DNA of 64,000 bases from NCBI GenBank assembly GCA_947044405.1, contig CAMRHE010000054.1:3658001-3722000 (forward strand), written 5' to 3'. The notes below the pieces were generated by a model. It made no database searches. It had not been told where the DNA came from and saw only the letters and a program-made list of their open reading frames with translations. Source of the stretch: Leptodactylus fallax (lineage: Eukaryota > Chordata > Amphibia > Anura > Leptodactylidae). A program made the position numbers and the translations under genes. Of this stretch, positions 7,151-61,642 are shown one piece after another; position 1 is the first letter of the stretch, and the number at the start of each line of letters is the position of its first letter.

Positions 7151-7608
7151 TCTTCCTGCTGACAGTCCGGAGATTCCCATGCAACTGGGTCATACTGCTT
7201 TATCTCCTTAGGAATGCCTTTGTCATATTACTTTGTATTAAGGCCAATAGGGTCCTCTCTTTTCAAATTGCTCAGGAGGGAAATCTCAAGCCTAAAGATG
7301 TAACAAAGTTAACGATCACAGTTAGATCATGCTAGCGTGATCTACCTGTGATGTTAAGTTTTACTGCTTGGTACTTATTTCAATCACTGGGTGGTCCCTG
7401 GATACATTTGCATGGCAAGTGCTGCCTAGAAATTCATATGAATAGCAGACAGCTCCTAACTGACCCCTGTGCCAGTTTTTTTTTTGTTTTTTTAATATAT
7501 ATACTATTGTCATTTTTCTGTTTTTGTCTTTCAAGAATTGCCTATACTAGGATGTATAATCTTTTCCAAAGGTTTGCATATGGATCCTGAAAAAATCTCA
7601 TATATATA

Positions 7609-7825
7609 CAGTGCTGGCCAAAAGTATTGGCACCCCTGCAATTCTGTCAGATAATACTCAATTTGTTCCAGAAAATGATTGCAATCACAAATGCTTTGGT
7701 AATAATATCTTCATTTATTTTGCTTGCAATGAAAAAACACAAAAGAGAATGAAAAAAAAAGTCAAATCATTGATCATTTTACACAAAACTCCAAAAATGG
7801 GCCGGACAAAAGTATTGGCACCCTC
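7609..7825. repeat. Left terminal inverted repeat of Tc1 element (IR/DR type)
   Basis: The outer transposase-binding-like repeat is at 7609-7636 and the inner one at about 7800-7825. The inner repeat ends a few bases before the transposase stop codon at 7829. Confidence 0.85.
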
Positions 7826-7828
7826 AGC

Positions 7829-8920
<1,092 letters not shown>

Positions 8921-9032
8921 TCAACTGGCTGCAAGTGTGATTTAGTTATTGCCACCACCTGTTATGTGCCACAGGTAAGTAACAGGTGCTGTTAATTACA
9001 CAAATTAGAGAAGCATCACCTGATTTTTCAAA

Positions 9033-9245
9033 GGGTGCCAATACTTTTGTCCACCCCCTTTTTTATGTTTGGTGTGGAATTATATCCAATTTGGCTTTTT
9101 GACAATTCTTTTTGTGGTTTTCCATTGAAGACAAATTAAATGAAGATATTATTACCAAAGCATTTGTGATTGCAATCATTTTCTGGAAGAAATTGAGTAT
9201 TATCTGACAGAATTGCAGGGGTGCCAATACTTTTGGCCAGCACTG
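9033..9245. repeat. Right terminal inverted repeat of Tc1 element (IR/DR type)
   Basis: The outer repeat ends at 9245 and the inner copy, GGGTGCCAATACTTTTGTCC, begins at about 9033. It mirrors the left end with the inner part more diverged than the outer 100 bp. Confidence 0.85.
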
Positions 9246-10594
9246 TATACTGTATATATATGGGTTGGCCACAACCTGTAGGTCTACAAGCACTTCAAAA
9301 ATTCCTGGGATTCACCAACTATTACTAGCAGTTCATTTAAGACTACTCTATAGTGGTCGCATCTCGTGCTGCACTTACTTGCAGTGTAGCTAATACTCTT
9401 GTTTGACCAGATTCAGCAATACAAGCCTTCAAGGAGCAACAAAGTAATTTTTCTTGAAGTGGAAACTTTTGCTAGTATGAAGCAGTTCTGTCTAGAGATG
9501 GGTGAAAATCACAAGATTTGTTTCTACATGTTCGGTCTTGTTTCAGGCCGAACATGTTCAGTACGAACCGGAAGTTCTATTATAATTGGGCTCCACCAGT
9601 CATGTGGGGCACACTAACATCATGATGCTGGGTCAATGTTGTGAGGATGTTCAAGAGAGGTGAGGCAAGGTAAGTATAACTGTTATTTTTATTCATCTCC
9701 ACTGAGCCGCCACTTATTATACTCTGGGGACTGAGGAGACCCCACAGTATAATAAGGTTTTGTTGGTGACAAACCCTGTTCAATCCAAATCATTTTACTC
9801 TTCCTTATTTCTGTCTCAGCACACTGAATCCAAAAGAGTTGATCCTCCCAAGGCTACATCAACCATCTTACTTGAGCAGTAAGAGCAGTGCTCCCAGGGC
9901 TGAAGGCACCAACTGACTCATTTGTATAAGACTTCAAAGTTGTTTTTCTCCAAATGTATAATTGTATATGGTGACATACATAACAAAGGTATGTTGTCTA
10001 TCTCTGTAATGTGCTCTGTAATGTGGTGGTGGCAGTTGAATATGCTTGGGGGAGGTGGTAGACTTCCTTTAATTTGAAATTTCTCTACAAGTAGTTTTAT
10101 TGTGTGACATTTTCTTATGCATGCAAGTAAAATATAATCCTGGTTATTAATCCATGTGTTAAACTTAATCTGTAAATGTGAAATAATAGGTTATTTAAAA
10201 GTACTGTTAATCTCTGAAATTAGAGAAGGGCAGTATGTTTGAACCACAATTTATGGTAATGTCACAACTAATTGGTTATCACTGGCCATGCCAGTGGCAG
10301 AATAGGTAGCATTATATCACAGCAAATTCTTATGAAAAAAAAACTCTGTGGTGCACAACATCATAAATGTATCCTCCACAATCTGCATATCACACTGTCC
10401 ATTAACTTTGTATGTGAACATTTGTGCTTTGCAGATAGATCACTGAACTTGGTATGGGACTATGTCCTGAATTGGAGCTTAGCTCTGTTCAAGGGTTTGA
10501 ACTGCAATATTAGGCACTGACAGCAGACAAGTGTTTCACTGATTCAGAATAGTTAGACCCTTTTTTTCTAATCCCTGGCAACCCTTTTAATGCA
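9246..10594. other. No gene; half of a foldback module near 9640-9760
   Basis: Most of this stretch is A/T-rich and unassigned. At 9640-9690 a GGTGAGGCAAGGTAAGTATA segment precedes a 45-bp hairpin at 9708-9756 (TTATTATACTCTGGGG...CCCCACAGTATAATAA). This is the right half of the module that recurs in full at 17363-17712 and elsewhere. Confidence 0.5.
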
Positions 10595-10776: not shown

Positions 10777-12125
10777 CAGTAGTGAACCTAGCCTCTGCCT
10801 GAGGCGGACTATAGAAAGATGCCCCCCCCCCCCCCCTCAAAAAATAAAATAAAATTGAGTTTACATGCTACTAGGTTCACACGCTGTCGTACAATAAGCA
10901 AACACAAAGTTATAAACCAGTTTTTAAGAATTCTTCTTACTGCATTACTTCAGTATCAAAGATCAACAAAACGGCATTAACAATGACAATAAGTTCACAT
11001 ATATTCTGTGCTTGGTGGATGGATGAGCCGCGTGGCCCCCATTCTCTATAATAGGAGCGCCGCACATAGCTGACTACTGTACTTCGGGTATCTTTGGCAC
11101 TCCCATCAAAGTGAATGAGAGCCACGCGGGTTCGTCCACCCACCAAGCTACACGCCTATATTCAGCCTGGCTGCGGTCAGGCTGTATTCCCACCCAGTGG
11201 GGGGGGGGGAACCCAATTCTCAGGCTCAGACCCCTCTGCAGACAGACCCCCATCAATCAGGTATTTATCCTCTATCATTTAGATGAATACAGTGCAGTAA
11301 CATGTTGTGATTTACAGGTGACATCTCTGACTAATCCTTCACATTTCCCTTCTCTTCCCTTTGGACCACGATGACCACTTCTTCCAGCTGTGATTTGTCT
11401 CTGTAAAGTTTGCAGCACAGACATCTTTGGCTCCTCACTTTTCCAGGCACCTGACCCACATTGTCCTCATCTGCACACCCATCCTGCTGCTACCCAATTA
11501 TAAAGTATATGATATAACCCTCCATAATGAATAACTCCCAAGTGCATCTTTATATTAATAATGTCCGTGTGTACCCCGTATAAATAATGCCCCTTATTAA
11601 TAATGCCCCAGGTGTTAACTAATTAAAAGGTTTTCCATGTCATTAATAAATTAATCAGTGGGGCTCAAAAACCCAGGAACCCTACTGATCAGCTGTTTGA
11701 ATGAACTGTGGTACATGTGTAAGCACCGTGACTGCTTCTCTGTTTACATAGTGTCATTCATCTCATAGTGGCCATGTAATGTACCTGCAGCCTTGACCTA
11801 TACACGTCAATGTGACAAGACTGTGATTACATCACACGGTCACTATAAACAAACAGCGTGTGATATAAACAGGCGTCATATCCCCTTCATACAGCTGATC
11901 AGAAGGGGGGTTCACTGATCTCTTATTGATAATCTGTCCTGTGTCATGTGTCATGTGCGGCGGGGACTTCCGCCAGAAGAAAACACCAGAGCAGTAGAAC
12001 CAGACTGCGGTTGGAGACATCGGAGCACAAGGGACTGGTGAGTATATATATATATTTTTTTAATACAGTATTACATGGTATTATGCCCCGCAGTGGTCCC
12101 TGCACATGGTATTATGCCCTGCAGC
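10777..12125 (-). mobile_element. Inverted, truncated copy of the element at 13370-15789
   Basis: This segment is the reverse complement of about 14290-15789, with moderate divergence along 1.3 kb. It starts CAGTAGTGAACCTAGCC next to a run of 17 C (the partner has a G run). Its inner end includes a splice-donor-like GGTGAGTATATA at about 12036 and two units of the 31-bp minisatellite before stopping near 12125. No matching 8-bp target duplication was found, so this copy is truncated on the right. Confidence 0.7.
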
Positions 12126-13369: not shown

Positions 13370-15789
13370 CAGTAATGAGGCGAAGTGAGGCGGCCGCCTC
13401 AGGTGGCACTGTCCGTCACTGTCTGGGGGGTGGCATTTTTACCATTTATTTAATGTAAACCAGCACAGGACAGGCCGCTTAAAAAAAAAAAAAAGGTGAG
13501 CGGGGCCTGTCCTGGGCTGGTTTATGAGACCTTTGCATGTCAGCGCAGGTGGCGATACAATGACGTCATTGCGCCTCCTATGCTGAGACGCAGACGTTGC
13601 GGTCAAGAAGAGGAGGCGGCGGCGGCTCCATCAAGGGATTGCAGGTAGGTGCGGAGAACTTTATTTTTATATATACAGTGCCTTTGCTAAAGTATTCGGC
13701 CCCCTTGAACTTTTCAATCTTTTGCCACATTTCAGGCTTCAAACATAAGGATATAAAATTTTAATTTTTTGGTGAAGAATCAACAATAAGTGGGACACAA
13801 TCGTGAAGTGGAACGAAATTTATTGGATATTTTAAACTTTTGTAAAAAATGGGGTCTATGGAGCAGGATACTGTGTGCAGGGGCCACTATGGGGCATAAT
13901 TACGTTTGCAGGGGCCACTATGGAGTATAATAACAAGTGCAGGGGCCACTATGGGACATAATACCGAGTGCAGGGGCCACTATGGAGCATAATACCGAGT
14001 GCAGGGACCACTATGAGGCATAATACCATGTGCAGGGGCCGCTGCGGGGCATAATACCATGTGCAGGGGCCACTATGGAGCATAATACTGTGTGCAGGGG
14101 CCGCTGCAGGGCCTAATACCGTGTGCAGGGGCCGTTGCAGGGCATAATACCGTGTGCAAGGGCCGCTGCAGGGCATAATACCGTGTGCAGGGGCCGCTGC
14201 AGGGCATAATACTATGTGCAGGGGTCGCTGCGGGGCATAATACCGTGTGCAGGGGCTGCTGCGGGGCATAATACCATGTAATACTGTGTGCAGGGGCCAC
14301 AGTGGGCCATAATACCGTGTAATACTGTATTAAAAAAAAAACACCTACTCACCTGTCCCTTGTGCTCCGATGTCTCCCACCGCAGTCTGGTTCTGCTGCT
14401 CTGGTGTTCTCATCTGGCGGAAGTCTCCACCACACATGACCGCTGACGGGAAGAAAACACAGGAGCAGCAGGACTGGAACGCGCTGGGAGACACCGGAGC
14501 ACCTTCCCCAGCCTCATATTAAAAAAGTGGTTATCCTGGACAACCCCTTTAAGGTGGCACTTGGGCTTTATTAAAGGGGCTTTCAAGCTCATTTTTATTG
14601 ATGTTCTATCCTTAGGACAGATTATCAATAAGAGATCAGTGGACCCCTCCTCTGATCAGCTCTATGAAGGGGCTATGGCGCCTGTTTATATTATACGCTG
14701 TCTGTTTATAGTGACCATGTGATGTAATTACAGCCTTGTCACATAGACGTGTATAGAACGAGGCTGTAGTTACATGACATGGCCGCTATGAGATGAATGA
14801 CACTATGTAAACAGAGAATCGGTCACGGTGCTTACACAAGTACCATTCAAACAGCTGATCAGTGGGGGTCCTGAGTCTTTGACTGACCCACTGATTAGTT
14901 TATTAATGACTTGAAAAACCTTTTAATTAGTTAACACCTGGGGCATTATTAATAAGGGGCACTATTTATACAGGGTACACACGGACATTATTAATATAAA
15001 GATGCACTTGGGAGTTATTCATTATGGAGGGTTATATCATATATTTTATTATTGGGGTAGCAGCAGGATGGGTGTGCAGGTGAGGACAATGTGGATCAGG
15101 TGCCTGGAAACGTGAGGAGCCAAAGATGTCTGTGTTGCAAACTTTACAGAGACAAGTCACAGCTGGAAGAAGGGGTCATGGCGGCCCAAAGGGAAGAGAA
15201 GGGAAATGTGACCGATTAGTCAGAGACGTCACCTGTAAGTCACAAAATGTTACTGCCCTGTATTCACCTAAATGATAGAGGATAAATTCCTGATTGATGG
15301 GGGTCTGTCTGCTGAGTCCCCCACTGAGCCTGAGAATTGGGTTTTTTTCCCCCCACTGGGTGGGAATCCAGCCTTGCTGCAGCCATATACAGGTGTGTCG
15401 CTTGGTGGATGGACGAACCCGCGTGGCTCTCATTCACTTCAATGGGAGTGCCAAAGATAGTGGAAGTCCAGTACTCAGCTATCTGCGGCGCTCCTAATAT
15501 AGAGAATAGGGACCACGTGGGCTCATCCATCCACCAAGCAGAAGATGTGTGAAGTTACTTTCATTGTTAATGCCATGTTGTTGATTTCTGATACTGAAGT
15601 AATGCAGGAAGAATTCTTAAAAACTGTTTCATAAGTCTGTGTATGTTTATTGTACGACAATAACAGCGTGTGACGCTAACAGCATGTAAATGCAATTTTA
15701 TTTATTTTTTTTTTTTTTTGGGGGGGGGGGGGGTGGGGGCGTCTTTCGATAGTCCGCCTCAGGCAGCAAAGTGGCTAGGTTCACCACTG
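13370..15789. mobile_element. hAT-type non-autonomous element with 8-bp target duplication
   Basis: A perfect 8-bp duplication ATTACAAT lies at 13362-13369 and 15790-15797. The element starts CAGTAATGAGGCG and ends CACCACTG, with subterminal GCCGCCTCAGG / CCGCCTCAGGC motifs on both sides. CAG...CTG ends and 8-bp duplications fit the hAT superfamily. Inside are a foldback (CCAGCACAGGACAGGCCGC with its complement near 13500), a GC-rich core with TGACGTCA at 13561-13568, the 31-bp minisatellite and 1.5 kb shared in inverted form with 10777-12125. It has no transposase, so mobilisation would need one in trans. Removing it restores a continuous tandem-repeat unit across the site. Confidence 0.8.
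13870..14310 (+). repeat. 31-bp minisatellite, about 14 units
   Basis: The unit reads approximately GCAGGGGCCRCTRYRGGGCA followed by TAATACCGTGT, 31 bp. The same unit recurs at 16848, 24437, 35727, 38150 and 60492, always inside hAT-type elements. Confidence 0.9.
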
Positions 15790-16430
15790 ATTACAATTTA
15801 TGGGGTCTTTGTCTCTGGTGGCACATGCTGGGCAAAATATATTGGGCACTGAAATGGCATATAAGATTCGAAAACTGCAATTCTCCTTTTGTACCATTTG
15901 CTGTGCAGTACCATTTGGAAAAGCTTGTGGTATCAAAATGCTCACTATACCCCTAGATTAATTCCTTAAGGGGGTCTAGTTTCCAAAATTGATTCACTTT
16001 AGGGGGTGTGTTGTGGTAGCTCTAGGGCTCTGCAAATGCGACATGGTACCTATAAACCATTCCAGTAAAATTAGAGCTCCAAAAGACAACTAACGCTTTT
16101 TTTCGCTTCTGAGCCGTCCTCTGTTCTTGATCACAAATGGGGCATTGCTGTACTTGGGAGAAATTGTTTAACAAGATGGGCTATTCTATTCCCTGGTAAA
16201 AAGGGAAAAAAATTACAAAAAGTACATATAACTGGAGAAATTATTATGTTTTTCTAATTGATGGACAAATTCACAAGTTCAGTGAAAAGCCTGGGGGTTA
16301 AAAATTGTTATATCACCCTGAGATGAATTCCTTAAGGGATCTTGTTTCCAAAATGGGGTCACTTCTGGGGGTTTTCCACTGTTGTGGTACCTCTAGGGCT
16401 CTACAAATGCAACATGATACCTATAAACTG
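15790..16430 (+). repeat. piggyBac-associated tandem repeat units (plus orientation)
   Basis: Continuation of the host repeat interrupted at 13369. It holds typical unit landmarks: CTCACTATACCCCTAGA at about 15942, GGCTCTGCAAATGCGACATG at about 16026 and AAAATGGGGTCACTTCTGGG near 16352. Confidence 0.6.
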
Positions 16431-16847
16431 GGGTAGGCAACCTTTTTTGTTTGGCGTCCCGATTTTAATTAAAAAAATCAAAGATGAGGTACTCGGAGTG
16501 CTGGTCAATAATTGTCTGATGACCCCTAAACTAAAGTCATATACCACAAACCATAACACAGAAGTGCTGCCAGCAGATGCTTTAGGACACATGCGTTTAC
16601 TGCTATTTCCTGGGACGCACCTGTACTTTCTGATTAGAAGCAATAAAAGTCCATGTGCATCCCGCAATTAGTGGTAAATGTATGTGTCCAGGAGCACCGT
16701 ATGGTGGCATCCTTATGGTTAATACACACTATGTATCTGGATGCAGATATAGTCTTAGGCCACTGGAACTTTTACTTCAATGTAAAAATGCCTGTGTTTT
16801 CTGTGCAAAAACACATCCTTAATGCAGAAAACACACCGTTATACAGA

Positions 16848-17362
16848 ATAATGTCCCATAGCGGCCCCTGCACATGGTATTATGTCCCATAGCAGCCCCT
16901 GCACAATGTATTATATCCCATAACAGCCTCTGACCACCGTATTATGTCACATAGTGGCCCCTGCACACGGTATTATGTCATATAGTGGCCCCAGCACACG
17001 GTATTATGTCATATAGTGGCCCCAACACACGGTATTATGTCATATAGTGGCCCCAGCACACGGTATTAGGTCCCATAGCGGTCCCTGCACATGGTATTAG
17101 GTCCCATAGCGGTCCCTGCACACAGTATTAGGTCCCATAGCGGTCCCTGCACACAGTATTAGGTCCCATAGTGGTCCCTGCACACGGTATTATGTCCCAT
17201 AGCGGTCCATGCACATGGTATTAGGTCCCATAGCGGTCCCTGCACATGGTATAAGGTCCCATAGCAGTCCCTGCACACGGTATTAGGTCCTATAGCGGTT
17301 CCTGCACACGGTATTATGTCCCATAGCGGTCCCTGCACATGGTATTATGTTCCATAGCTCTC
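16848..17362 (-). repeat. 31-bp minisatellite, about 16 units, reverse orientation
   Basis: The + strand reads repeated TATTATGTCCCATAGCGG then CCCCTGCACAYGG. It is the complement of the 13870 array. Confidence 0.9.
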
Positions 17363-17712
17363 TTCAGACCCCCGAGTATAATAAGTGCATGACCAAGAGA
17401 GGTGACAAACATAAAAAAACAATGCTACTCACCTTTTTCTGCGCTCCAAGCCGCTTTGTTCTCTTTGGCGCTTCTGCCTGTAGTCAGCGACCACTGATTG
17501 GGTCTCTGGGGTCACGTCGCGTCATTATGCGTAATGATGCCGGACGTGACCCCTGAAGCCCTGTCAGCTGTCAGAAGCGCCTGCAGATCGCACAGCCGCT
17601 GCGTAGCGCAGGGAACAAGGTGAGTATCATTGTTTTTTATGTTTCATCACTTCTCCTAAGTCTCCGCTTATTATACTCGGGGGTCTGAAGAGACCCCACA
17701 GTATAATAATAG
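17363..17712. repeat. Foldback module: hairpin, GC-rich core, hairpin
   Basis: A half hairpin (GACCCCCGAGTATAATAAG) opens the module and a full one, 17671-17709, closes it. Just inside, GGTGACAAACATAAA...ACTCACCT on the left mirrors AAGGTGAGTATC...TTTATGTTT on the right. Each is a good 5' splice-donor consensus pointing away from the core (minus strand at the left, plus at the right). The core (about 17440-17620) is GC-rich and holds GCGTCATTATGCGTAATGATGC, an imperfect palindrome. Confidence 0.7.
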
Positions 17713-17840
17713 CAGTTTCGTTTCGGCCATGTTTGGTCCGATCGAAGCTGCTGGATGAGGACTCCGCTGCCGTGCCAGGGAAATAAGCCTAGTGCCACTC
17801 TTGGCACGCGTGCTGGGGGTTGCCGACCCCTGCTATAAAC

Positions 17841-24430: not shown

Positions 24431-24690
24431 GTGGTCCACAATGGGGCATAATACTGTGTGCAGGGGCCACTATGGGTCATAATACTGTGTCCAGGGGCCA
24501 CTATGGAGCATAATACTGTATGCAGGGGCCAGTATGGGGCATAATATTGTGTGCAGGGGCCACTATGGGGCATAATAGTGTGTGTAGGGGCCACTATGGT
24601 GCATAATAGTGTGCGCAGGAATGCAGTTTGTGCGGGGGAGCCATGTCAAATGTTCGCCTTGGGGCCAAGCCATTCCTAGTTACGCCATTG
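24431..24690 (-). mobile_element. Fragment of the CAGTGGCGTAACTAGG element with minisatellite
   Basis: Read on the minus strand from 24690 it begins CAATGGCGTAACTAGGAATG, matching the start of the complete element at 60355, then runs into about six 31-bp minisatellite units (24437-24625). The distal part is missing and no duplication of CGTTGAGT was found. Confidence 0.7.
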
Positions 24691-35261: not shown

Positions 35262-36366
35262 CAGGGCTAGGCAACCTTTTTTGTTCGGCATGCCGATTTT
35301 AATCAAAAAAAAAAAATCAAAGATGAGGTACTCGGAGTACCACGCAATAATTGTAAGTCTGATGACCCCTAAACTAAAGTCATATACCACAAACCATAAC
35401 ACAGAAGTGCTGCCACCAGATGCTATAGGACACATGCGTTTACTGCTATTTCCTGGGATGCATCTGTACTTTCCGATTAGAAGTAATGAAAGTCCATGTG
35501 CAGCCCCCAATTAGTGGTAAATGTATGTGTCCAGGAGCACCATATGGCAGCAGCCTTATGGTGGAAACACACTATGTATCTGGATGCAGTTATATTCTTA
35601 GGCCACTGGAACTTTTATTTCGATGTAAAACTGCATTGACATGGTGCATTTTTGCACATAAAAAATGCCTGAGTTTTCTGTGCAAAAACACATCCTTAAT
35701 ACAGAAAACACACCATTATATAGAATAATGTCCCATAGTAGCCCCTGTACACGGTATTATATCCCATAGCGACTCCTGCATATGGTATTATATCCCATAG
35801 CTACCCCTCCATAAAGAATAATATTGTAACTTTTATAATATTCCAATTTTCGCCACTCACTAGCTATTATTATACTGTGGGGTCTCTTCAGACCTCAGAG
35901 TATAATAAGTGGAGGGCCAAGAGAGGTGACAAACATAAAGAACAATGTTACTCACCTTCCCTGCGCTCCACAGTGGCTCTGTTCTCTTCGGACGCTTCTG
36001 CCTTTACTCAGCGACCGCTGATTGGGTCTCAGGGGTCGCGTCATTATGTGTAATGACGTTGGACAAGACCTCTGAGGCCCTGTCAACCGTCTCTTACTTC
36101 AGGCAGAAGCACCTGCAGAGCACAGAGCCACTGCGGAGCGCAGGTATGGAGAGTTAACATTATTTTTTATGTTTGATCATCTACCCGGGGGCTCTGCTTA
36201 TTATATTCGGGGGTCTGAAGAAACCCCCGAGTATAATAATAGCAGTTTCATTTCGGCCTTGTTTGTTCCAATCGAAACTGCTGGGTGAGGAGTCGGGCTG
36301 CCCATGTCAGGTAAATAAGCCTCGCGTGCCACTCTTGGCACGCATGCTGGAGGTTGCCAACCCCTG
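35262..36366. mobile_element. hAT-type non-autonomous element, GTCTAGGA duplications
   Basis: The exact 8-mer GTCTAGGA is at 35254-35261 and 36367-36374. The ends are CAGGGCTAGGCAACC and GGTTGCCAACCCCTG. The left 450 bp are closely related to 16439-16840. It has three minisatellite units (35727-35825) and a full foldback module (35862-36241). It has no coding sequence. A third copy of the duplication at 36480-36487 follows a partial repeat of the right end. Confidence 0.85.
35862..36241. repeat. Foldback module: hairpin, GC-rich core, hairpin
   Basis: Hairpins at 35866-35911 and 36195-36241 (TTATATTCGGGGGTCTGAAG and complement) bracket the core. The left inner edge carries GTTACTCACCTTCC, a minus-strand splice-donor consensus. 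The right edge carries GCGCAGGTATGGAG, a weaker plus-strand donor. The core has CATTATGTGTAATGACG. Confidence 0.7.
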
Positions 36367-36487
36367 GTCTAGGACTTGTCAGCAACCCCCTGCCGTGTTT
36401 TTTCCGATCGAAACTGCCGGGTGAGGAGTCGGGCTGCCCGTGCCAGGTAAATAAGCCGTTCCGGGTGTTGCCGACTCCTGGTCTAGG
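36367..36487. repeat. Partial duplicate of the hAT-type right end plus target sequence
   Basis: After the first GTCTAGGACTTGTCAG comes a diverged roughly 95-bp copy of the element's right end (ATCGAAACTGCCGGGTGAGG to TTGCCGACTCCTG), and then GTCTAGGACTTGTCAG again at 36480. It looks like a tandem remnant of an earlier or aberrant event at the same site. Confidence 0.75.
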
Positions 36488-36545
36488 ACTTGTCAGAAAC
36501 TGTTGAAAAGCTGTAGTTTTATTGGTACTATTTTCTGGTATGTAC

Positions 36546-38140
36546 AGGGGCGCACCGCTAATGAGGTGAATTGAGGCAGCCGCCTCAGGCGGCACTGTCC
36601 GGCGGGCGGCATTTTTACTATTTCATGTAAACCAGCCCAGGACAGGCCGCTTTAAAAAAAAAAAAAAAAAAACAGAGCTGAGCGGGGCCTGTCCTGAGCT
36701 GGTTTACAAGACGTCGCATCTCAGCGCAGGCGGCGATACAATGACGTCATCACGCCGCCTACGCTGAGACACAGACGTCACGGACAAGAAGAGGAGGCGG
36801 CGGCGGCTGCATCAAGGCATCGCAGGTGAGTATAACTTTTTTTTTATATATATAAATAGGCCATAACCTGTTGGAGCATCCCCGGCAGGTAACGGCCTAT
36901 TTATTTACCTACCCCGCGTCTGCTCGTGGCCGCCCCCCGCTTCCCCCTTCTGCTATGGGACGCAGAAAGGGAAGTGGATGTTGCTGTGAGCGGCCGCGGG
37001 TATTGGTAAGTGAGGCCGCAGGCTGCAAATACTACTATTATTATACTCCAGGGTCTATTCAGACCCCGGAGTATAATAATCGGAGGCCTAGGGTTGGTGA
37101 GGGAACATAAAAACCAATGGTACTCACCTCCTGTGATCCGATGTAACTCCGAGCAGGTTTGAGGCCTCTGGTGACGTCATCAGGTCGCGTCGCCGGCCTG
37201 ATCACGTGACGTGTGTGCGCAATTAAACAGGGCTGAAAGCTGCAAGGAGTACACCGGTGTCCAGGATAGGTAAGTAACTTTGGTTTTTATGTTTGTATTC
37301 TCCCCTGGGTCTCCAATCATTATACTCTGGGGTCTGAAAAGAATCCGGCCCGCTGCCTTCTGTTATCTGGCCCGGCACTTATCTGGCCCCGGGCGGCATT
37401 TTTTTATTGTCCATTTAATGTAAACCAGCCCAGGAAAGGCCGCTTAAAAAAAATAAAAAACAAAAAAAAGCTGCGCGATACCTGTCCTGGGCTGGTTTAC
37501 GAGACCTCTGCATGTCAGCGCAGGCGGCGAGACAATGACGTCATCGCGCCTCCTACGCTGACACGCAGACGTCGCAGACAAGAAGAGGAGGCGGCGGCTG
37601 CATCAAGGCGTCGGAGGTAGGTGAGGATAAGTTTTTTTATATATATAAATAGGCCGTTGCCTGGTGGAGTATCCCCGGCACGTAACGGCTTATTTACTTA
37701 CCGATCCCCGCTGCTGGTTGTGGCCGCCCCCGCTTCCCCTTCTGCTATGGGACGCAGAAGCGGCTGTGTGCAGGAGCGGGGATGGTAAGTGAGGCCGCGG
37801 CCGGCAAACCCCATCAAATACTACAATTATTATACTCCGGGGGTCTTTTCAGACCCCGGAGTATAATAATCGGAGACCCAGGGGAGGTGATAAACATAAA
37901 ACCAGTGTTACTCACCTCTCCAGCGATCCGATGTTGCTCCCAGCCGGCTTCGGCCTTCTTTGGTGACGTCCCAGGCGTCACGTGAGCCAGGCCGACGTCA
38001 TTATGTCGCGACGCCGGTCTGTGCGACATTGAAGAAGGCCGAACGCAGGGAGCGCACCGAGGCCCAGGTAAGTAACACTGGTTTTTATGTTTGTCACCAC
38101 CTGGGTCTCCGATCATTATACTCTGGGGTCTGAAAAATAG
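36546..38140. mobile_element. Composite of hAT-type end and several GC-rich foldback modules
   Basis: It starts CAGGGGCGCACCGCTAATGA, related to the 13370 terminus. Six GC-rich cores follow (about 36690-36835, 36905-37015, 37130-37275, 37490-37620, 37690-37790, 37915-38080), separated by A/T segments and hairpins (37030-37081, 37828-37872). TGACGTCA occurs at 36742, 37172 and 37536. Splice-donor consensus sequences flank most cores pointing outward, for example GCAGGTGAGTATAAC at 36820 and CCCAGGTAAGTAAC at 38065. No open frame is supported. The left flank has no matching duplication at 38763, so the unit may be two elements fused. Confidence 0.6.
37828..38140. repeat. Foldback module, best-preserved symmetric copy
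   Basis: The left hairpin is ATTATTATACTCCGGGGGTC and its complement. Then CATAAAACCAGTGTTACTCA on the left mirrors GTAAGTAACACTGGTTTTTA on the right. The arms carry the splice-donor consensus on both strands, facing outward. The core has GGTGACGTCCCAGGCGTCAC and a palindromic GTCGCGACGCC. Confidence 0.75.
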
Positions 38141-38144
38141 TTCA

Positions 38145-38762
38145 TGGGTGGGGGCTCACTATGGGGCATAATAACCTGTGCAGGGGCCACTATGGACCAT
38201 AATACCGTTTGCAGGGGCCACTATGGAGCATAATACCAATGCAGGGGCCACTAAGGAGCATAATACCGATTGCAGGGGCCACTATGGAGCATAATAATGT
38301 GTGCAGGGGCCACTATTGAGCATAATACCATGTGCAGTGGCCACTATGGAGCATAATACCGTGTGCAGGGGCAACTATTGAGCATAATACCATGTGCAGG
38401 GGCCACTATGGAGCATAATACCATGTGCAGGGGCCGCTGTGGGGCGTAATACCGTGTGCAGAGGCAACTATAGAGCATAATACCATTTGCAGGGGTAAAC
38501 AGTATTTGTATAGTGCTTAATTTTTGATATATTCAGAAAAGGATGAGGATAGTATGTAACATGCTTTTTAGGTTTTAACAATACATTATGTTCTTCCTGG
38601 TTGCCCTCAAAGGGCTGATTGTAACAGTAGTAATGTACAAATGTAACTACTCCTTAATAGCTCGCTTAACTGTTAAGGAGAAGTTACTTTTATACATGTG
38701 TAAAATAATCTTGGCCCTTCAAGGCTGAAGTGGCCCCCGGAGAAAAATGAGTTTGACACCCC
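38145..38762 (+). mobile_element. 31-bp minisatellite (about 11 units) and a hAT-type right end
   Basis: Minisatellite units run 38150-38500. The following unique tail ends GAGTTTGACACCCCTG at 38762, a CTG-type hAT terminus. The matching left end (CAGGGGTGTCAAAC) is not in the window. Confidence 0.65.
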
Positions 38763-39689: not shown

Positions 39690-40001
39690 GTCTGTAAATG
39701 GCACCCCAGGGGTCACCACTAGGGCCTGTGATTGGGCCTCAGTGGTCGTGTAATGACATCAGAGCGTCCCACGTGATTACTGAGGCCCAATTACAGGCTT
39801 CAGCGGTGACCCCTGCGGTGAGTGATGTCATTCCCAGGCAGGAGAGGTCTTTAGAGGATGCTGGAGAGAGCCAGACAGACTTAGGATGCCCAGGAGAGGT
39901 GAGGCAAGGTGAGTATAGGTGTTACTTTTATTCATCTTCCCTGGGCCTCTACCTATTATATTCTGGGGTCTGAGGAGACCCCAGTGTATAATAATAGCAC
40001 T
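39690..40001. repeat. Right half of a foldback module
   Basis: A core with GTGATTGGGCCTCAGTGG mirrors ACTGAGGCCCAATTAC. It is followed by AGGCAAGGTGAGTATAGG, a plus-strand splice-donor consensus, and a hairpin at 39953-39999 (TATTATATTCTGGGGTCTGA and complement). Confidence 0.65.
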
Positions 40002-43254: not shown

Positions 43255-43600
43255 CACTGTTATACTCTCCTCAGACCCCAGAGTATAATAAGTGGAGGCT
43301 CAGGGGAGGTGAGTGAAGATAGCTATACTGGGCATCAACTGGCGTCGTCTTCAGGCCTCTTCCGGTCCCTGAATGACCTCATGTAATCCTGTGTCACCGC
43401 TATAGCCTTTCCCAGAGTTGGCCCAGGGGCATGTGACGTCATCCAGGGGCCGGAAAAGGCCAGAAGAAGATACCAGGGGATTGGCAGACGCCCAGGAGAG
43501 TTGAGGCAAGATGAGTTTACCTGTTTGCTATTTTCACTCACCTCCTCTGAGCCTCCACTTATTATCCGCTGAAGAAACCCCAGAGTATAATAATATCACT
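43255..43600. repeat. Foldback module with TGACGTCA core
   Basis: A half hairpin (CAGACCCCAGAGTATAATAA) opens it and a degraded hairpin near 43556-43595 closes it. TGACGTCA is at 43434-43441. Here the left edge GGGAGGTGAGTGAAG has a plus-strand donor, and the right edge is partly inverted (TTCACTCACCTCC), so this copy is rearranged relative to the others. Confidence 0.6.
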
Positions 43601-44189
43601 TTTGGTACAAGTTAAGCCTGAAATGTACCAAGGGGGAGGGGGGCAAACTTCACAAATATTCGCTGAAACAAACCTTGCGAGATTTGTCCATCTATTTATG
43701 GCCTGTTCAACCAAACGGATCTGTTTTTTATAATGTAAAAATGGATACATATTTGTGTTCGTTTTTACTATTGGTTGCAATTGGTTGGTCTGTACAGCCC
43801 GATCATTTGCAGCCGTGGTGGGCAGTGTAAACCAACGGCCACTGCCCTGCTCGTGTCACACCCTCTGGGATTGCGAGCAGGACAGCACCCGTGCTGCCCC
43901 TGTGAGCGGTTTTCTGAGTGGTTCCTCTGTAGTTCCTCCTGGCAGATTGATCTGCGCCTACATGCATCTCTCTCCATCCTTCCTTCCCTAAACTCGTTAT
44001 TTTACTTTTTGTGTTTCTTTTTTTTTTTTTTTTTGCATCCTCCTTTTTTGTTACATCTCCATGCTGCTGCAGAGCTCCGTTCAGTGATGTAAGTTATTTA
44101 TTGGACCTCTGCTCAATTTTTTTTGGCTGCAGGTTTTTTATTTATTTTTTTTTTTTTTTGCAAAACTCAATATTTTCGTTAGATTTAGT
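43601..44189. other. No gene recognised
   Basis: Mixed sequence with two long T runs (about 44019 and 44145). Nothing identified. Confidence 0.35.
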
Positions 44190-56701: not shown

Positions 56702-57994
56702 CCGTGATGGCGAACCTATGGCACGTGTGCCAGAGAGGGCACGCAGAGCCCTCTCAGTTGGCCCGCGCGCCGTCGCCATAATCGCTCACTAACACGGAAT
56801 CCGATACAGGATTCCTCATTAGTGAGCGATTGCTTCTTTCAGCTGTATGTACAAATGCACATACAGCTGAAAGCTGTCAGTGTAGGCCACAGGACCGCTG
56901 CTTACACGGTAGATGCTAAATCAGTAAAGGCTAAATACTGTACTCTGGAAGGACCTTCTGACGTCATAAGGTCACATGACAGGGTAGGCGTATCTTTACT
57001 TGTAAGAAGGTCCTTCCACATGAAGAAAAGTTGTGTCCCCGTGCAGTGGAGGAACATGGAGAAATGTGGGGTGCAGGGTGTAGTGTGGGGGGTAGAGATG
57101 TGGGGTGCAGTGTGTAGTGTGGGGGAGAGATGCAGAGTGTAATGTGGGGGGAGAGATGTGGGGTGTAGTGTGGGGGGAGAGCAGTGGGGTGCAGGGTGTA
57201 GTGTGGGGGGAGAAATGTGGGGTTCAGGGTGTAGTGTGGGGGGGGGAAATGTGGGGTGTAGTGTGGAGGGAGAGATGTGGGGTGTAGTGTGTTGGGGGAG
57301 AGATGTGGGGGGAGAGATGTGGGGTACAGGGTGTAGTGTGTTGGGGGAGAGATGTGGGGTGCAGGGTGTAGTGTGGAGGGAGAGGTGTAGAGTGTAGTGT
57401 GGGGGAGAGATGTGGGGTGTAGTGTGGGGGGAGAGATGCGGGGTGCAGTGTGTAGTGTGGGGGAGAGATGCAGAGTGTAATGTGGGGGGAGAGATGTGGG
57501 GTGTAGTGTGGGGGGAGAGGTGTAGGGTGTAGTGTGGGGGAGAGATGTGGGGTGTAGTGAGGGGGGAGGGGTGTAGTGTGGGGGGAGAGATGCGGGGTGC
57601 AGTGTGGGGGGAGAGATGTGGGGTATAGTGTTGGGGGAGAGATGTGGGGTGCAGGGTGTATTGTGGGGGAGAGATGTGGGGTGTAGTGTGGGGGAGAGAT
57701 GCGGGGTGCAGAGTGGGGGAGAGATTCGGGGTGCAGTGTGGGGGGAGAGATGCAGGGTGCAGTGTGGGGGGAGAGATGCAGGTGTAGTGTGTTTTGGGGG
57801 AGAGATGAGGGGTGCAGGCTGCGTGCAAGAGGGTGGAATGGGGGTGCAGGCTGCGTGTGAGCAAGAGGGGGAATGGGGGTGCAGGGGAGGCAGGTTAATT
57901 TAAGGTGAAATTGCCGTGTTGGCACTTTGCGATAATTTAGTGGGCTTTGGGTTGCAGTTTGGGCACTCGGTCTCTAAAAGGTTCGCCATCACTG
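56702..57994. mobile_element. hAT-type non-autonomous element with perfect 8-bp duplication
   Basis: GACTAGAC lies at 56694-56701 and 57995-58002. The ends are CCGTGATGGCGAACCTATGG and AAAAGGTTCGCCATCACTG, an inverted pair. The left part has a TCAGCTGTATGTACA...TGTACATACAGCTGA-like palindrome at about 56838-56874. The interior is dominated by a G-rich minisatellite. There is no transposase. Confidence 0.88.
57060..57900 (+). repeat. G-rich minisatellite (about 840 bp)
   Basis: Irregular units of about 20-35 bp built from TGTGGGGGGAGAGATGTGGG and GTGCAGGGTGTAG. Almost every unit has runs of three to six G, so the + strand could form G-quadruplexes repeatedly. The C-rich complement gives long but meaningless open frames (56902-57864 minus). 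Confidence 0.92.
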
Positions 57995-58132
57995 GACTAG
58001 ACAGTCTAATGCTAGGTTCACACTAGCGTTCGCTGGTGTCCATCCCAGATTCTGCTTAAATTGGCAGAAAGAAAAGTCCTGCAAGGAGGACTTTTCTCCT
58101 AGCCGATTTCAGTATAAAATCGGCGGAAACCC

Positions 58133-60354: not shown

Positions 60355-60491
60355 CAGTGGCGTAACTAGGAATGGCTGGGCCCCAAGGCAAACATTTGAC
60401 ATGGCCCCCCCCACGAACCGCCGCCCCCCGACCCCTCCCCCCGGACCGCCCCCTCCAACCCCCCCCCCAAAAAAACGCATTCCTGCGCACA

Positions 60492-61010
60492 CTATTATGT
60501 GCCATAGTGGCCCCTGCACACAGTATCATGCCCCATAGTGGCCCCTGCACACAGTATCATGCCCCATAGTGGCCCCTGCACACAGTATCATGCCCCATAG
60601 TGGCCCCTGCACACAGTACCATGCCCCATAGTGGCCCCTGCACACAGTATCATGCTCCATAGTGGCCCCTGCACACAGTATCATGTCCCATAGGGGCCCC
60701 TGCACACAGTATCATGTCCCATAGTGGCCCCTGCACACAGTATTCTGCCCCATAGTGGCCCCTGCACACAGTATCATGCCCCATAGTGGCCCCTGCACAC
60801 AGTATCATGTCCCATAGGGGCCCCTGCACACAGTATCATGTCCCATAGGGGCCCCTGCACACAGTATCATGTCCCATAGGGGCCCCTGCACACAGTATTT
60901 CCCCCATAGTGGCCCCTGCACACACTAATTATTCCCCATAGTGGCCCCTGCACTGAGTATTTTGCCCCATAGTGGCCCCTGCACACACTGTTATATGTCC
61001 CATTGTGGAC
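60492..61010 (-). repeat. 31-bp minisatellite, about 17 units
   Basis: Nearly identical TATCATGCCCCATAGTGG then CCCCTGCACACAG units. These are the most homogeneous of the six arrays, suggesting recent amplification. Confidence 0.95.
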
Positions 61011-61017
61011 CAGCCAT

Positions 61018-61372
61018 GAACAATTATTATACTATGGGGTCTTTTCAGACCCCAGAGTATAATGATCGGAGACCCAGGGGAGGATAGAAACATAAAAAAA
61101 CAACGTTTCTTACCTGTTCCTCGCTCCGGTGCATGCCCGTGCGCTACTCCGGCCTTCTTCAATGTTGGACCAGGCCGGCGTCATGTGACGCGGGCCTGCG
61201 TCGCGACGCAAAATGACGTCGGCTGACATCTGGGACGACACCAAACAGGCCCGAAGCCTGGAAAAGCGTAGGACAGGTAAGTACATTGTTTTTTATGTTC
61301 CCTCACCAACTCTGGGCCTCCGATTATTATACTCCGGGGTCTGAAAAGACCCCGAAGTATAATGATAGCAGA
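61018..61372. repeat. Foldback module: hairpin, GC-rich core, hairpin
   Basis: Hairpins lie at 61021-61065 and 61322-61368. CGTTTCTTACCTGTTCC on the left and GGACAGGTAAGTACATTG on the right are outward-facing splice-donor consensus sequences. The core has GCGTCATGTGACGCGGGCC, TCGCGACGC and ATGACGTCGG. Confidence 0.75.
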
Positions 61373-61642
61373 TATTGTGGTGTTCGGGCCGCGGCCTCAC
61401 ATACCGATCCCCGCTCCTGCTCACAGCCGCCTCCGCAGAATCGGAAGCACAGGCGGCCGTGAGCGGGACCTCGGGGAACGGTAAGTATATAGGGCCTGTT
61501 ACCTGCTGGGGTTACTCCAGCAGATAACGGACTATAAAAAAAAAAAAAAAAAAAAAAAAACGCATCGGGGGCCCGCCGGGCCCCGTAATGTCCCGGGCCC
61601 TGTGGCAGCTGCTACCCCAGTAGTTACGCCCCTGGCTTCGAT

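Follow-up and report, generated by a model that had tools for sequence, protein, structure and literature searches.

Why should GC-rich cores in the genome of Leptodactylus fallax be framed by inverted arms that carry a 5' splice-site consensus pointing away from the core? The question is raised by a stretch of 64,000 nucleotides (contig CAMRHE010000054.1, C54:3658001-3722000, hereafter the window) in a genome of 2.50 Gb, for which an initial annotation had proposed that such modules could be mobile bidirectional promoters whose first exon splices outward into flanking DNA. Its description is confirmed in part, as the structure is real and recurs beyond the window, although some particulars were overstated, and its interpretation is likewise partly supported. 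The position and orientation of the donors relative to a CRE (TGACGTCA), the carriers of the modules, their abundance and a moderate constraint on the donor are established. The reading that we prefer, with a probability of roughly 0.42, is that of a candidate transposon-borne promoter and first exon with a U1 site, derived from the element's own 5' end.

GC-rich cores with inverted arms are present in the window at 17359-17716, 35863-36243, 37026-37342, 37815-38136 and 61020-61371. These and the related features are listed here in window coordinates:

9644 to 9755, plus strand: single arm with donor AAG/GTAAGT at 9670.
13373 to 13675, plus strand: A-type copy with CRE at 13561 and donor CAG/GTAGGT at 13645.
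16428 to 17832, plus strand: short hAT-type carrier with a 31-bp minisatellite and a module; ends CTGGGGTAGGCAACC...GGTTGCCGACCCCTG, target-site duplication (TSD) CTATAAAC identical at 8 of 8 positions with a 1-base offset allowed; homologous to 35262-36366.
17359 to 17716, no strand: module with outward donors at 17432 (-) and 17620 (+), both AAG/GTGAGT.
35262 to 36366, plus strand: short hAT-type carrier of the second module; ends CAGGGCTAGGCAACC...GGTTGCCAACCCCTG, perfect 8-bp TSD (8 of 8 at both candidate right ends).
35863 to 36243, no strand: palindromic module; left outward donor at 35955 (-) kept, right donor lost.
36545 to 37025, plus strand: A-type unit with CAGGGGCGCACC end, hairpin, CRE core at 36742, outward donor CAG/GTGAGT at 36826 and a second small core at 36912-37005.
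37026 to 37342, no strand: B-type module with CRE at 37172 and outward donors at 37127 (-) and 37270 (+).
37390 to 37810, plus strand: second A-type unit with CRE at 37536 and donors at 37617/37621.
37815 to 38136, no strand: second B-type module with outward donors at 37915 (-) and 38068 (+).
39690 to 39999, plus strand: older core with one arm, donors at 39899 and 39909.
43262 to 43602, no strand: diverged module with CRE at 43434; outward donors decayed, inward partners strong.
60355 to 61634, no strand: short hAT-type element bounded by CAGTGGCGTAACTA...TAGTTACGCCCCTG; it contains minisatellite, a B-type module at 61020-61371 and what remains of an A-type unit at 61376-61554; donors at 61113 (-), 61277 (+) and 61481 (+); TSD 7 of 8.

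A B-type arm begins on the outside with an outer hairpin of the form TTATTATACTCYGGGGTCT...AGACCCCRGAGTATAATAA; next comes another inverted repeat, whose inner strand ends in the donor with a T-rich stretch behind it, and innermost lies the GC-rich core. The A-type units (36545-37025, 37390-37810 and 13373-13675) contain a palindrome centered on the CRE and about 75 bp of exon-like sequence, and they carry a strong donor on the right side only. An A+B pair is duplicated in the window (36603-37340 and 37390-38136), part of it being found reversed at 61040-61554.

A GGTRAGT donor had been described on every arm of the five named modules and is present on eight of the ten; the exceptions are 35863-36243, whose right arm has lost it, and 61020-61371, whose left arm reads GGTAAGA. 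Two smaller cores (36690-37015 and 37490-37790) were said to do the same, yet neither has a donor pair around its CRE, the strong donor lying on the right side only (36826; 37617/37621). In three copies a further small core next to the CRE core is flanked by outward pairs of lesser strength, with left/right scores of 7.7/8.5, 8.8/10.0 and 5.8/10.2 bits. These and all other bit scores use assumed nine-position donor weights. The module at 43262-43602 is an exception to the outward rule in that its strong donors point inward (43309 +, 43541 -). In a palindromic module, donors on the two arms are one observation rather than two. Across the window GGTRAGT occurs 34 times vs. 16.5 in shuffles, none of 100 shuffles reaching 34, and 24 of the 63 donor-like sites of at least 9 bits fall inside 13 module stretches that make up 6.5% of the window (4.1 expected); for four of these 13 stretches taken singly, the donor number is often matched by their own shuffles (53 to 102 of 300). 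As a plain word GGTRAGT is not enriched in 200 kb sampled elsewhere (45 sites, ends of contig stretches trimmed; GGTGAGT ranks 23 of 105 and GGTAAGT 204 of 210 permutations), which indicates that the window is rich in modules. Searches of the window returned no Rfam match at gathering scores and no tRNA gene.

Mobility is supported for part of the copies. Short transposons of hAT type, with terminal repeats of two kinds and target duplications of 7-8 bp, enclose the modules at 17359-17716, 35863-36243 and 61020-61371, and copies at three sampled loci (L001, L011 and L014) likewise lie between hAT-type ends with 7-8 bp TSDs; for these modules and copies the claim stands. Carriers were taken as all end pairs matched by four terminal-repeat words, in part presumed, in the window and in L001-L064, and their CAGGG-type terminal inverted repeats differ from CAGGGGTCGGCAACC and CAGGGGCGTAACTA by no more than 2-3 mismatches. 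Taking the best of nine 1-base offsets, the 8-bp TSD is identical at 8 of 8 positions in L011, L014, L016, L001, 16428-17832 and 35262-36366, and at 7 of 8 in 60355-61634. Outside the window the first end type occurs in L011, L014 and L016 and the second in L001; module arms lie inside L001, L011 and L014, and L016 has a weak match to the outer hairpin only. Since paired ends and TSDs flank them, the modules are cargo of short hAT-type elements, and two types of terminal repeat are represented among these. The carriers measure 0.7-2.7 kb and, to judge from this length, are presumably non-autonomous and without a transposase gene. The right end and target duplication of the 35262-36366 carrier are repeated once more, ending at 36480, and no second end was found for the element that begins at 36545.

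The window also holds other repeats. A 31-bp minisatellite (CCACTATGGGGCATAATACCGTGTGCAGGGG) occurs in either orientation at 13856-14279, 16851-17358, 24436-24619, 35731-35808, 38151-38495 and 60482-60987, five of the six arrays lying near modules or inside module carriers. An inverted repeat pair of about 1.2 kb each (10777-11940 and 14614-15789, 87% identical) flanks the A-type copy at 13373-13675. A G-rich minisatellite with units of 14-151 bp lies at 57058-57890, and the strongest strand asymmetry of the window, a GC skew of 0.795, at 57001-58000. A Tc1-like element at 7601-9247 with an open frame of 363 codons shares 98.7% identity with a copy in L023 (4648-6290), a likeness that suggests recent activity. 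A fragment at 47592-47942 matches Pfam DDE_Tnp_1_7, which we take to be a piggyBac-like transposase.

The CRE gives access to the rest of the genome, which contains TGACGTCA 70,826 times. In the window it had been counted five times, always inside cores of this kind; there are six copies (0.33 expected in shuffles), and the sixth, at 56959, belongs to a different palindromic repeat that has a relative at L029, with GTCACATG adjoining and without a strong outward donor. The outward orientation of the donor is borne out genome-wide, as GGTGAGT 60-90 bp from the CRE points outward in 10,329 cases vs. 417 inward. The outward pattern (ACTCACC N{60,90} CRE) has 5182+5147 matches vs. 125+124 for its reversed-letter control, and the inward pattern 213+204 vs. 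356+376; in about half of the inward places whose letters were inspected by eye, the match is the outer part of a hairpin within the arm and an outward donor follows.

Scored donors give the same orientation at 53 CRE sites chosen without regard to donors, namely the 49 first CRE places of contig C1 (L001-L004 and L025-L064) and four more from 10-kb stretches spaced 1 Mb apart (20 stretches, L005-L024). An outward donor of at least 9 bits lies within 300 bp of 42 of these 53 CREs (on both sides in 9, on one side in 33, on neither in 11), and an inward donor of that strength near 19. Sorted by distance, outward and inward donors number 47 and 10 at 30-120 bp, 13 and 10 beyond, and 0 and 2 below 30 bp. 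The next 20 CRE places, held out, have 14 outward and 5 inward donors at 30-119 bp (10 and 5 of the 20 sites). Pooling all 73 CREs gives 61 outward and 15 inward donors of at least 9 bits at 30-119 bp, with at least one at 46 and 15 sites, respectively. Among control words in 200 kb, other 8-bp CpG palindromes have 7 outward and 6 inward donors at 73 sites, and 8-bp palindromes without CpG have 40 and 106 at 876 sites. The bidirectional part of the proposal fares less evenly, as it agrees with the palindromic B-type modules but CREs with a strong outward donor on each side are in the minority, 9 of 53 within 300 bp and 13 of 73 within 200 bp, and even these are partly due to the palindrome.

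Such counts are of copies and not of independent origins, because 59 of 79 CRE cores (window included) join one superfamily through links of at least 30 bp and CRE clusters unrelated to it are mostly without a donor; counted by cluster, 3-7 favor outward donors, 1-2 inward and 15-21 neither. With 80 bp as the link length, a set of 59 cores splits into 23 clusters, of which the biggest have 18, 12 and 6 members. The association of CRE and donor therefore belongs to a single repeat superfamily, large and diverged, and not to CREs in general. At 10 of the 79 sites (for example L001, L003, L066, L070 and L083) the outer hairpin found within 450 bp of the CRE is of another kind, the ATTGGAAAGG type, which suggests that cores and outer hairpins have been swapped between elements.

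The core holds the CRE and GTCACRTG-type sites, with a consensus 5' splice site 30-120 bp off and facing outward in most sampled copies. With one core taken per cluster GTCACRTG occurs 7 times vs. 0.2 expected (z 14.8); GAAGA is also enriched in the cores (z 4.6), and CCAAT boxes show no clear enrichment there (z 0.9 over 59 cores, 2.4 with one per cluster). Positions +9 to +49 behind 50 outward donors are 43% T, and AWTAAA occurs there once on the outward strand vs. 19 times on the other, a scarcity to which the T-richness itself contributes. A flank that is T-rich and poor in poly(A) signals would favor outward elongation. Nine window modules have a CpG observed/expected ratio of 0.62-1.09; the ratio is 0.44 in another and falls to 0.21-0.36 in the three that have diverged most. 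CpG has changed to TG/CA in 35% of cells in seven module pairs vs. 54% in 430 other pairs, some of which contain modules; relative to other C/G transitions the loss is 2.9-fold in module pairs and 3.7-fold in the others, a slightly lower decay, close to that of other repeats, which does not clearly mark the cores as germline CpG islands shielded from methylation.

We propose that short hAT-type transposons, presumably non-autonomous, carry the modules as internal cargo, and that the core would be a promoter plus a short first exon that originated as the 5' end of an autonomous element's gene. It may have been retained in active lineages because transcription, stabilized by U1 at the donor, would benefit the element, either through open chromatin or through host-like transcripts in the germ line. 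If the core is indeed a promoter and first exon with an outward donor, new copies could start transcripts that are spliced into flanking DNA, and could do so in both directions where the module is palindromic. A wider claim, that hAT-type transposons have seeded a vertebrate genome with tens of thousands of candidate promoter/first-exon cassettes driven by a CRE, in which the U1 site together with flanks poor in poly(A) signals would make outward transcription productive, partly in both directions, is one that we consider doubtful.

Among the alternatives the most probable, though we consider it a somewhat unlikely one, is that the donor word, along with the T-tract, serves the structure of the arm, in a hairpin (AGGTGAGTA...TACTCACCT) or in a block bound by the transposase, and resembles a splice site by coincidence, with no part in splicing. 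The word does sit within the inverted repeat of the arm, and some arms (L002, L017, L019 and L024) have strong words on both strands. However, the outward half keeps the donor far more often than the inverted half: a profile built from 14 arms of the window matched 51 places in the window and in L001-L024, and in the 33 that reach the donor the outward half is strong in 25 and the inverted partner in 7. One of the 33 (L017_1163+) is the reverse view of another (L017_1204-) and was dropped from the 32-arm sets, in which the counts are 24 and 6. Most copies had been collected via CRE places, with a systematic sample added, so that the CREs in them are no clean measure of CRE conservation. Outside the window (18 arms) identity is 0.78-1.00 at the donor columns against an average of 0.70, and the six core columns of the partner reach 0.72-0.94; the last two columns of the partner alone clearly differ, at 0.41 each.

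Rates of change speak on both sides. On a tree built without the donor and partner columns, and compared against arm columns only, changes per column number 2.9 in the donor, 5.0 in the inverted partner, 4.4 in the rest of the arm and 2.7 in the adjoining T-tract (5.9 for comparison columns that include the core, which is not alike between families). The initial annotation had named conservation of the GT above the arm background as a check, and this is weakly borne out, as the donor is slower than the arm but the T-tract is equally slow. Against a special role of the donor, its window is 24th among 87 arm windows, and 47 of the 95 arm columns are as slow as the GT columns or slower. Judged by identity, conservation is highest in the outer hairpin windows, in line with the hairpin explanation. 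The hairpin explanation is at odds, however, with the presence of the module in two hAT terminal-repeat types and with the A-type donor, which has a different surround and a double-donor history. The ancestral-looking form of family A is CAG/GTAG/GTGAGT, and its copies keep the first donor, the second (TAG/GTGAGT, four bases on), both, or a form shorter by 4 bases with one perfect donor.

Pure hitch-hiking, in which an ancestral element had a CRE and donors by chance and was amplified without selection, we regard as unlikely. It would account for the membership of 59 of 79 cores in one superfamily, for the likeness throughout of most family B copies and for donor columns that are just moderately slower than the rest of the arm. 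It does not readily account for the donor having changed less than both the rest of the arm and the inverted partner (2.9 vs. 4.4 and 5.0 changes per column), nor for a strong donor kept in 24 of 32 arms vs. 10.8-11.9 expected from arm divergence, a figure that ignores relatedness and includes the 14 arms that built the profile; the expectation falls to 8.6 when core columns are counted in. Split by family, a strong donor is found in 15 of 18 family A copies vs. 10.9 expected (P 0.018), the other three being diverged, rearranged or cut there, and the family B donor is kept in 9 of 11 right arms vs. 6.7 expected (P 0.058) and in 8 of 11 left arms vs. 5.7 (P 0.077), neither of which is significant. 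The G(+1) to A variant, GATGAGT, has 216+232 = 448 matches in the outward position vs. 74+66 in the control, which alone is no proof of constraint on the GT.

Improbable in our view is a foldback element that yields double-stranded or small RNA from a long palindrome, with donors and CRE as passengers. The module at 35863-36243 folds back over nearly its whole length (DNA energy z -16.8), and long inverted arms, a feature of foldback elements and MITEs, are present in the modules, in A-type units only in part. The A-type cores, however, have the same donor arrangement and are palindromic around the CRE only, and cores and outer hairpins differ among copies. Splice sites of the Ds kind, for removal from or exonization in host transcripts, are very improbable here, for although the carriers are hAT-type and maize Ds1 is reported to supply three donors and two acceptors (PMC5432752), removal requires donors that lead into the element near its upstream end whereas these leave a central core by about 25 to 1, and an intron-like layout of the Ds type is absent as judged on donor orientation alone.

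Should the promoter and first-exon cassette be what it appears to be, it would keep supplying the genome with new transcripts and with fusions between transposon and host. A CREB-type motif and a U1 site would come pre-assembled on a mobile element, in a genome with 70,826 copies of TGACGTCA and with a strong outward donor 30-119 bp away at 46 of 73 sites sampled on one contig. If transcribed, these copies would offer a natural experiment on the origin of new genes and on why a transposon bears a host-like promoter.

At the level of titles and abstract openings, the literature gave no description of such a module, which may bear a name in Repbase or Dfam. Its carriers resemble non-autonomous hAT elements and hAT MITEs in their CAGGGG-type terminal repeats, 7-8 bp TSDs and length of 0.7-2.7 kb, but the modules add a central GC-rich CRE core, outward donors and T-tracts, across two terminal-repeat types. 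LTRs are known to provide alternative promoters with a first exon and donor, as with MERVL/MT2 in mouse and THE1 in primates, and here too a mobile sequence would potentially supply promoter, first exon and donor; unlike the LTRs, the carriers are DNA-transposon-like and the module, known here from its sequence, is often palindromic. Maize Ds/Ds1 shares with it a hAT element as the source of splice donors, but Ds is reported to give host genes exonization sites, with donors from the beginning of Ds, whereas the donors of the module exit a central core (PMC5432752). A further parallel is with de novo transcripts in apes, which are reported to be associated with gains of CREB, JUN and RFX motifs upstream and of U1 sites downstream of the start, LTRs being among the contributors of CREB motifs (PMC4697840). 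The layout would be alike, with a CREB motif upstream and a U1 site downstream of the start; in the human and chimpanzee lineages, however, the two are reported as gains (PMC4697840), whereas in this frog both would arrive in one mobile unit.
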